Part shown: positions 5,138-41,583 of the stretch, piece by piece | Numbering within the stretch: position 1 is the stretch's first letter | Layout of the letters: each line of letters begins with the position of its first letter | Assembly (NCBI GenBank): GCA_015486505.1 | Contig: WFRP01000125.1 | Location: forward strand, 1 to 41,583 | Origin: Pseudomonadota bacterium | GTDB taxonomy: Bacteria; Desulfobacterota; Anaeroferrophillalia; Anaeroferrophillales; Tharpellaceae | Length of the DNA: 41,583 nucleotides | Direction: 5' to 3' | Position numbers and translations under genes: made by a program | Notes under the pieces: generated by a model | What the model saw: only the letters and a program-made list of their open reading frames with translations | Databases searched by the model: none | Told to the model about the DNA's origin: nothing

Positions 5138-5167
5138 ACGGTTAAAAAGCCCTGCTCCTGAAACTCA

Positions 5168-5278
5168 TGCGGGAACCAACTCCCGCAACCCAAACAGGGC
5201 TTTGTGGCCCGCAAATAAGTACTCTTATCAGAACATTTTCTTGTTTTTTCAAACCGAAAATAACCTGTAAGGTACTAA
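5168..5278 (+). repeat. Family A element copy A1 (short apical loop, no optional cassette), tandem with A2
   Basis: TGCGGGAACCAACTCCCGCAACCC...AAATAAGTACTCTTATCAGAACATTTTC-ttgttttttcaaacc-GAAAATAACCTGTAAGGTACTAA. Confidence 0.95.
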
Positions 5279-5400
5279 TGCGGGAACAAACCCGCAACCC
5301 AAACAGGGCTTTGTGGCCCGCAAATAAGTACTCTTATCAGAACATTTTCTGATTATTAAATCTTGTTTTTTAGTGCAGAAAATAACCTGTAAGGTACTAA
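5279..5400 (+). repeat. Family A element copy A2 (long apical loop, no cassette)
   Basis: Near-identical to A1 outside the loop; ATTTTCTG...CAGAAAAT stem; shares the CTAA junction with A1. Confidence 0.95.
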
Positions 5401-9124: not shown

Positions 9125-9137
9125 AAAATCCTCCTGA

Positions 9138-9269
9138 TGCGGGAACAAACCCCGCAGTCCCAAAAAAGTTATCGGCCCGTACCCAGAGGCAATCCGCTGG
9201 TCGCAAATAAGTGCTCTTATCAGAACATTTTCTTGTTTTAAAACAAGAAGATAACCTGTAAGGCACTAA
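9138..9269 (+). repeat. Family A element copy A3 (perfect-hairpin apical loop, with cassette), tandem with A4
   Basis: AGTGCTCTTATCAGAAC-ATTTTCTTGTTTTAAAACAAGAAGAT-AACCTGTAAGGCACTAA; compensatory AGTGC/GCACT. Confidence 0.95.
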
Positions 9270-9391
9270 TGCGGGAACAAACCCGCAACCCAAACGGAGC
9301 CTTGCGGCCCACAAATAAGTACTCTTATCAGAACATTTTCTGATTATTAAATCTTGTTTTTTGGTACAGAAAATAACCTGTAAGGTACTAA
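9270..9391 (+). repeat. Family A element copy A4 (long loop, no cassette)
   Basis: TGCGGGAACAAACCCGCAACCC...GGTACTAA; 3' end overlaps the leuA stop codon. Confidence 0.95.
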
Positions 9392-11888: not shown

Positions 11889-12134
11889 GTAACTACTCAG
11901 CCGAATCCGGGGTCGGGCGCGGTTCTTCTCCGCCAGGCGTTAAGATTTCTGTTTTTCCTTACGCTCGCTGCGCCCGCCTTGCAAAACTCGCTTACGCTCA
12001 AACAGTTGCAATGCTAATGGGCTCCCGCTCGCTTCCGAAAAACAACGAAATCGTTTCCGCAACCGCTTACGAAAAGCCACCCCCGCCCCTTCCAGAAGAT
12101 GGGGGGGGGGGGTAAAATTTGGCTGAATAGTTAC
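11889..12134. repeat. Family B MITE, ~246 bp, with internal core
   Basis: GTAACTACTCAGCCGAAT ... ATTTGGCTGAATAGTTAC termini (16/18 complementary); core shared with 41461-41583. Confidence 0.85.
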
Positions 12135-12150
12135 GTTTTCCTTAACATAT

Positions 12151-12272
12151 TTAGTACCTTACAGGTTATTTTCTGCACCAAAAACAAGATTTAATAATCA
12201 GAAAATGTTCTGATAAGAGTACTTATTTGCGGGTCGCAAGGCTCCGTTTGGGTTGCGGGATCTGTTCCCGCA
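12151..12272 (-). repeat. Family A element copy A5 (long loop, no cassette)
   Basis: Reverse complement of the consensus; flanked by TTAG at 12273-12276, which contains the psd stop codon. Confidence 0.95.
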
Positions 12273-14051: not shown

Positions 14052-14133
14052 TATCTGTGCCTATCCGTGTCCATCTCCATCTATGGTTCAACAAAAAAAT
14101 AGAAACCACAGATGAACGCAGATTAACACAGAT
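14052..14133. repeat. Degenerate family C hairpin in the ilvN-ilvC spacer
   Basis: ATCTGTGCCTATCCGTGTCCATCTCCATCTATGGTT ... AACCACAGATGAACGCAGATTAACACAGAT. Confidence 0.65.
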
Positions 14134-22776: not shown

Positions 22777-22911
22777 TGCGGGAACAGATCCCGCAACCCA
22801 AAAGAAAGTTATTGGCCCGCACCCAGGGGCACTTCCGCTGGTCGCAAATAAGTACTCTTATCAGAACATTTTCTTGTTTTTTCAAACCGAAAATAACCTG
22901 TAAGGTACTAA
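22777..22911 (+). repeat. Family A element copy A6 (short loop, with cassette)
   Basis: TGCGGGAACAGATCCCGCAACCC...TACCCAGGGGCACTTCCGCTGGTCG...GGTACTAA. Confidence 0.95.
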
Positions 22912-23540: not shown

Positions 23541-23665
23541 TTCGGGAACAAATTCCCGCAACCCAAAAGAAAGTTTTCGGCCCGCAAATAAGTACTCTTA
23601 TCAGAACATTTTCTGATTATTAAATCTTGTTTTTTTGGTGCAGAAAATAACCTGTAAGGTACTAA
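23541..23665 (+). repeat. Family A element copy A7 (long loop, no cassette)
   Basis: TTCGGGAACAAATTCCCGCAACCC...ATTTTCTG...CAGAAAAT...GGTACTAA. Confidence 0.95.
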
Positions 23666-28291: not shown

Positions 28292-28440
28292 TGCGGAAAC
28301 AAATTCCCGCACCCCAAAAGAAAGTTTTCGGCCCGTACCCCAAGGGCAATCCGCTGGTCGCAGATAAGTACTCTTATCAGAACATTTTCTGATTATCAAA
28401 TCTGGTTTTTTGGTGCAGAAAATAACCTGTAAGGTACTAA
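28292..28440 (+). repeat. Family A element copy A8 (long loop, with cassette)
   Basis: TGCGGAAACAAATTCCCGC...TACCCCAAGGGCAATCCGCTGGTCG...GGTACTAA. Confidence 0.95.
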
Positions 28441-29133: not shown

Positions 29134-29268
29134 TTAGTACCTTACAGGTTATTTTCGGTTTGAAAAAACAAGAAAATGTTCTGATAAGAGTACTTATTTG
29201 CGACCAGCGGAAGTGCCCCTGGGTACGGGCCGAAAAGGCCTGTTTGGGTTGCGGGATTTGTTCCCGCA
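29134..29268 (-). repeat. Family A element copy A9 (short loop, with cassette)
   Basis: Reverse complement of the consensus, TTAGTACCTTACAGG...TTCCCGCA, then TTAG. Confidence 0.95.
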
Positions 29269-30244: not shown

Positions 30245-30392
30245 TTCGTACCTTACAGGTTATTTTCTGCACCAAAAAACAAGATTTAATAGTCAGAAAA
30301 TGTTCTGATAAGAGTACTTATTTGCGACCAGCGGAAGTGCCCCTGGGTACGGGCCAAAAAAGCCCGATTGGGTTGCGGGATCTGTTCCCGCG
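30245..30392 (-). repeat. Family A element copy A10 (long loop, with cassette)
   Basis: Reverse complement of the consensus, TTCGTACCTTACAGG...TTCCCGCG, then TTAG. Confidence 0.95.
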
Positions 30393-41312: not shown

Positions 41313-41380
41313 ATCTGCGTCTATCTGTGTTCATCTGTGGTTAAAAAAGGAACCACAGATGAACACAGATGAACACAGAT
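41313..41380. repeat. Family C hairpin built from ACCACAGATGAACACAGATG units
   Basis: Arms of 30 nt (27/30 complementary) with loop AAAAAAGG; the 3' arm is three units of ~10 bp (ACAGATGAAC). Confidence 0.85.
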
Positions 41381-41406
41381 GAAAATCATTTATCTTATTT
41401 ATATTA

Positions 41407-41583
41407 GTAACTATTCAGCCACCCCCCCCACCTTCTGGAGGGGACGGGGGTGGTTTTTCGTAAGCGGTTGCGGAAACGATTTCGTTGTTTTTCCCAGCGA
41501 GCGGGAGCCCATCAGCATTGCAACTGTTTGAGCGTAAGCGAGTTTTGCAAGGCGGGCGCAGCGAGCGTAAGGAAAAACAGAAA
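41407..41583. repeat. Family B MITE copy, truncated by window end
   Basis: GTAACTATTCAGCC terminus and the same core as 11889-12134 in inverted orientation. Confidence 0.85.

Follow-up and report, generated by a model that had tools for sequence, protein, structure and literature searches.

Paired Changes in the Stem-Loop of a Dispersed Hairpin Element That Inserts at CTAA

Stem-Loops in the Window and the Element That Carries Them

The window, the whole 41.6-kb stretch of DNA analyzed here, contains ten copies of an AT-rich stem-loop, A1 to A10, as originally predicted, and genes that include leuA, ilvC, tolB and pal (Table 1). The window IlvC shares 95% identity with its counterpart in a Thermodesulfobacteriota MAG (JANTFH010000026.1). 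In cmsearch the copies lie well outside what chance would produce (E about 1e-14 to 1e-22); although the model derives from the window copies themselves, independent copies elsewhere give equal scores. The outer stem is AGTAC...GTACT in nine copies, including A10, which lacks the terminal pair and ends in GTACG. In A3, as had been noticed, it is AGTGC...GCACT, with a G-C pair where most copies have A-T. The apical part of A3 also differs and has a single T-G wobble, both as described before. The 13 bp attributed to it, however, are in fact at most 11, closed by a TTAA tetraloop (RNAfold), because arms of 13 nt would have no loop between them.

The AT-rich stem-loop forms the 3′ part of an element that is dispersed through the genome and is mostly 109-149 bp long. 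A TGCGGG...CCCGCA hairpin starts the unit and is followed by one or more further GC hairpins, by the AT-rich stem-loop and by a terminal CTAA. The AT-rich hairpin is imperfect: its 5′ arm carries two single-base bulges, and its internal loop is AAC/AAC. Flank alignments define these boundaries: this genome and its relatives share about 50 bp of conserved sequence 5′ of the stem-loop, and the sequence 3′ of GTACTAA is unique in the relatives, so that the unit extends from TGCGGG to CTAA. First units are as long as about 198 bp in this genome and as short as 81 bp in relatives. One to several copies of a hairpin module of about 27 bp (ACCCCAAGGGCAATCCGTTGGGC type) are added 5′ of the AT-rich stem-loop. 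This module is also found within one copy of another repeat, MITE-B, and behaves as if it were itself mobile. Unit A4 is inserted at the very end of leuA, whose stop codon falls within the terminal CTAA of the unit.

Table 1. Coordinates of the features; positions refer to the window unless a locus (L) is named.
Feature	Position	AT-rich stem-loop	Strand	Remarks
Unit A1	5168-5278	5217-5278	+	left target CTCA, 5164-5167
Unit A2	5279-5400	5326-5400	+	head-to-tail with A1
Unit A3	9138-9269	9209-9269	+	TGCGGG hairpin, GC hairpin (..CCAGAGGCAATCCGCTGG..), AT-rich stem-loop; right CTAA, 9266-9269; left target CTGA, 9134-9137
Unit A4	9270-9391	9317-9391	+	head-to-tail with A3; junction CTAA-TGCGGG at 9269/9270
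Unit A5	12151-12272	12151-12224	-	
Unit A6	22777-22911	22850-22911	+	left target CCAA
Unit A7	23541-23665	23590-23665	+	
Unit A8	28292-28440	28366-28440	+	between tolB and pal
Unit A9	29134-29268	29134-29195	-	
Unit A10	30245-30392	30245-30319	-	right end CGAA
Altered outer pair of A3	G9213-C9264		+	A-T in most copies
Sole base private to A3 against subfamily master	9250		+	A to G; T9229-G9250 wobble
leuA stop codon	9388-9390		-	TAG
Module of about 27 bp (ACCCCAAGGGCAATCCGTTGGGC type)	9178-9203; 28331-28361; L155 near 2607; L156:16517			
MITE-B	about 11900-12134		+	
MITE-B	41343-41583		-	
MITE-B, other sites	L151-L170			
MITE-B inserted in hairpin element	L157:1037-1362; L151:1-207			
Short repeat (AACCACAGATGAACACAGAT type)	14096-14133; 41343-41383			tandem, period 10, at 41354-41383
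AT-rich hairpin deleted, feet left	L265 about 1559; L157 about 3266		-	
Family II loci	L306:3039-3092 (G018); L323 (G000 C232:16298); L325; L332			
Diverged elements of G027/G064	L344; L345; L355; L356			

Mobility and Target Site

The element is mobile and inserts 3′ of CTAA, less often of CTGA, CCAA or TTAA. Between tolB and pal, the window reads ACTATCTAA, the element and ATATATG, and the corresponding site of a relative (G011, locus L241) is empty, with ACTATCTAA followed directly by ATATGCG. A second repeat of this genome, with ends GTAACTATTCAGCC, provides a larger set of such comparisons: 46 copies are empty (GCAATGCTAATGGGC or close variants) and 13 are filled, all with the element at exactly that CTAA and with twelve different insert lengths among them. 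Identical copies of the element are also found at many sites in this genome.

Among 61 single units, the left flank is CTAA in 41 and CTGA, CCAA, TTAA, ATAA or another tetranucleotide in the rest. The right end is CTAA in 56 of the 61, largely independent of the left flank, and this constant right CTAA beside varied left tetranucleotides speaks against target duplication as a general feature. Two units that have CTGA at both ends are not accounted for by a fixed right end. The element has no terminal inverted repeats, its two ends being unrelated (3 of 20 positions alike). Tandem units are arranged head-to-tail with the common junction CTAA-TGCGGG, which indicates that the right end serves as a new target.

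The second repeat, named MITE-B here, is abundant, about 250 bp long and bounded by terminal inverted repeats GTAACTATTCAGCC/GGCTGAATAGTTAC. One CTAA within it is a target for the hairpin element, and at two loci MITE-B has in turn inserted into the hairpin element. A short repeat of the AACCACAGATGAACACAGAT type also occurs in the window (Table 1).

Copy Number and Distribution

In 61 contigs (858 kb) of this genome, 275 stem-loops with 97 distinct sequences were found. Nearly all of these contigs were picked for having matches, and the copy numbers rest on the searches and on these contigs; with an initial candidate count of 710, we estimate 700-1000 copies in the genome. A search with the RNA model detected the element in 20 of the 22 genomes of the order. 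Among 298 sampled genomes of the phylum, the only other matches came from G027 and G064, which belong to a single other family. One exact pattern gave no match in viral contigs, and Rfam gave none for the window at the gathering threshold or for six loci at E up to 1.

Of 171 arrays, 164 are intergenic, in contigs with a coding fraction of about 0.83 by simple ORF calls. Relative to flanking genes, the element is oriented at random (34 same, 42 opposite, 20 convergent, 18 divergent), and orientation along contigs is unbiased, with 115 same and 108 opposite pairs.

The Paired Change in Copy A3

Four loop subfamilies, of 61, 62, 75 and 85 nt, dominate in this genome. A3 is a member of the 61-nt subfamily, whose G-C master, AAGTGC...TTGTTTTAAAACAAGAAAAT...GCACTAA, is present in 19 unchanged copies in the 61 contigs. 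The outer pair and the apical part of A3, which had been taken as two independent differences, were thus inherited together as traits of this subfamily. The sole base private to A3 is an A-to-G change, which is one-sided and weakens a pair.

By distinct sequence, the pair altered in A3 is AT in 64, GC in 10, AC in 12, GT in 6, CT in 4 and AG in 1; by copy, the numbers are 217, 28, 16, 8, 5 and 1, respectively. The original prediction held that mostly single-sided changes at this pair would tell against it, and the data come close to that: one-sided forms outnumber double changes among distinct sequences (23 vs. 10), although the two are about equal among copies (30 vs. 28). The association of G with C has an uncorrected odds ratio of 8.9 (p=3e-4). 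When letters are shuffled within loop subfamilies, the excess is modest, with 10 G-C forms against 6.3 expected (p=0.011). The G-C form is present in all four loop subfamilies, so that it either arose repeatedly or moved between them. In relatives the pair is AT in 19, GC in 13, GT in 4 and other in 5. Within this genome, the pair varies to an unusual degree and accounts for most of the covariation. Some small multi-copy families have a mismatched outer pair, which suggests that pairing is not strictly required there. The paired change in A3 is therefore a subfamily trait and, taken alone, is no proof of selection. A-C and G-T intermediates are both found at this pair, A-C at least as commonly, and the data do not single out RNA as the selected molecule.

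Covariation in the Main Element, Family II and a Diverged Family

An alignment of 64 distinct sense-strand sequences, from the main family, a second family (family II) and the diverged form of another family, was examined for changes on both sides of a pair. Such changes occur in 12 of 18 pairs, against 3.8 in shuffles, and fill 50 cells, against a shuffle mean of 13.0; none of 500 shuffles reached 50. Since the alignment was fitted to the structure and the shuffles ignore relatedness, these numbers support the fold and do not measure selection. Relatives alone give six pairs with double changes, against 1.8 when shuffled. The original prediction, that the stem-loop is a selected or mechanistically required structure, is right in direction, as pairing is kept well above chance, though this does not follow from copy A3 alone.

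Family II follows the plan of the main element: bases on its 5′ arm are left unpaired, and an AAC/AAC loop separates paired stretches. It was recovered by a model built without it. Its stems are different (CTTTGCC/GGCAAAG, GTTCC/GGAAC, ATTCCCC/GGGGAAT and others). It is dispersed in 11 of the 22 genomes of the order, with 32 matches in G018, and in most loci read it sits inside the main element, at the left AAC of that element; otherwise it is free. Short tandem runs of family II with a period of about 62 occur in two contigs of G018 (C149 and C186). The diverged copies of G027 and G064 keep the TAAGTAC...GTACTAA feet and the two single-base bulges. Their upstream GC hairpins differ from those of the main element, GAA/TTC replaces CAG/CTG, and in most of them a paired ATT/AAT replaces the internal loop.

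Possible Origins of the Paired Changes

Copy A3 is probably a copy of a non-autonomous mobile element recognized by its structure, in which pairing is needed for mobilization and the A-T to G-C change is a subfamily polymorphism. An enzyme supplied elsewhere would recognize the folded single strand, and the copies whose stem is still paired would be those that spread. Each insertion leaves a new CTAA target, at which further units join head-to-tail. The pairing of A3 may then be kept partly by this requirement for spread and partly by template switching between the arms. Several observations are against this explanation, namely the lack of an orientation bias, the units with CTGA at both ends, the mismatched outer pairs in small families and the failure to find a mobilizing gene.

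The less likely but still substantial alternative is that the element is the same and its compensatory changes are purely mutational, made by template switching or gene conversion in a quasi-palindrome, with no selection on pairing. Template switching is a documented mechanism that can copy both-sided changes from one arm to the other (PMC8794818). The AAC/AAC loop is fully complementary in seven distinct copies, and five of these are three-base switches from AAC to GTT on one arm (AAC/GTT or GTT/AAC), with no two-base intermediate among the copies examined, as is expected from this mechanism (PMC8794818). At two loci, the AT-rich hairpin has been deleted and its feet are left (Table 1). Such deletions mark the palindrome as mutagenic and, together with the homogenization of the arms, are signs that a DNA hairpin forms in vivo. 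However, homogenization left unchecked should erase the one-arm bulges and the 3 × 3 internal loop, and yet both persist in most copies and in family II, the bulges also in the diverged family; one-sided variants, too, stay common rather than being corrected. From this we infer that spread depends on the imperfect fold and that template switching is one of the sources of paired changes.

It is quite improbable that the stem is instead selected in a transcript, as part of a cis-acting structured RNA (terminator, attenuator or riboswitch) or of a retro-mobilized non-coding RNA. The several hairpins per unit, the covariation and the architecture conserved between distant families would suit such an RNA, whereas the random orientation to flanking genes, the hundreds of unrelated neighbors, the lack of an Rfam match and the frequency of A-C, at least equal to that of G-T at the A3 pair, do not.

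Beyond these copies, we tentatively suggest, as a possibility on the unlikely side, a phylum-level class of protein-free elements. An enzyme would read the folded strand, with two extra-helical bases on one arm and a paired stem round a central core, and would insert it at CTAA, each insertion regenerating the target and thereby building arrays; the stem-loops would also nest inside one another. What makes the hairpin element of interest is that it is abundant, targets itself and keeps its plan across distant families of a phylum, and that no enzyme for it was found. If the mobilizing enzyme reads the fold, each genome offers hundreds of natural variants, in many species, in which the role of paired and unpaired bases can be tested, and finding the enzyme might add a new structure-reading recombinase. 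There is also a caution: where hairpins are repeated, compensatory changes can come from subfamily descent and from template switching, so that one conspicuous copy by itself offers weak evidence of selection.

Comparison with Known Mobile Elements

No mobilizing gene was found among RAYT/Y1, IS91 Y2, IS110 and TnpB genes, an absence that is weak evidence given the gaps in MAGs. No autonomous version of the element, as lone arms or lone GC ends, was found either; the candidates were chance matches, contig ends, copies that were truncated or had decayed, copies with the hairpin deleted and sites where another repeat had inserted. No element ends border IS91 (Y2) or IS110 genes in the loci seen, where part of the IS ends were mapped. 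These loci gave no link to either group, and a Y2 pseudogene that abuts a truncated copy in L155 has the look of an insertion target. TnpB with its omega RNA is not supported, as no TnpB exceeded the cut-off in the 22 genomes.

The element resembles Chunjie, a MITE of Geobacter uraniireducens, in being a short, non-autonomous intergenic repeat. Whereas Chunjie possesses both terminal inverted repeats and direct repeats (PMC10969869), the hairpin element has unrelated ends and no general target duplication, and in this it also differs from classical MITEs.

Integron attC sites have three structural features (PMC2727003) that the element shares: extra-helical single bases on one arm of an imperfect hairpin, a central spacer that is unpaired, and an apical part that varies. 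Insertion beside a short fixed motif in head-to-tail arrays also recalls cassettes, but a cassette-like element moved by an integron-type tyrosine recombinase reading a folded attC-like strand is very improbable, as neither strand of unit A1 contains the R″ (RYYYAAC) and R′ (GTTRRRY) boxes and the copies lie scattered among core genes, with no cassette ORFs, rather than gathered in one array.

With IS200/IS605 elements, the hairpin element shares terminal hairpins, insertion 3′ of a tetranucleotide, a right tetranucleotide borne by the element and the lack of target duplication, with the two CTGA/CTGA units as exceptions. Its array junction is like the joints of single-strand systems, IS200/IS605 included. 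On the other hand, its hairpins are at the very ends, leaving no room for a left guide; no TnpB was found in the order, and Y1 genes do not appear to track the element. IS608 and ISDra2 are reported to prefer the lagging strand (PMC6006769), whereas the orientation of the element, compared between pairs within contigs, is unbiased.

REP and REPIN sequences, mobilized by RAYT (TnpA_REP), are similar in their hundreds of intergenic hairpin copies and tandem clusters. They differ in having a GT[AG]G guide at the hairpin foot and inverted REP doublets, neither of which the element has: on both strands of unit A1 GT[AG]G is absent from the foot, and GTGG occurs only inside a GC hairpin. No arm matches were found in 30 Y1_Tnp loci (flanks about 1.5 kb or less). 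The element is abundant in G014 (97% complete) and G005, with 32 copies each and no Y1 gene detected, and this genome, G000, has one, though MAGs can miss genes. This RAYT-like gene (L092:1299-2281, C101) is bracketed by an 18-bp inverted repeat, GGGTCGGGCCAAGCTAAC, that contains CTAA. RAYT/Y1 as the mobilizer is not supported, for lack of linked genes and of a guide motif. We assign the element to none of the RAYT/REPIN, IS200/IS605, TnpB, attC, MITE, IS91 or IS110 systems; compensatory changes are reported to be common in the hairpins of REPINs (PMC3116915), so that this aspect of it has a precedent.
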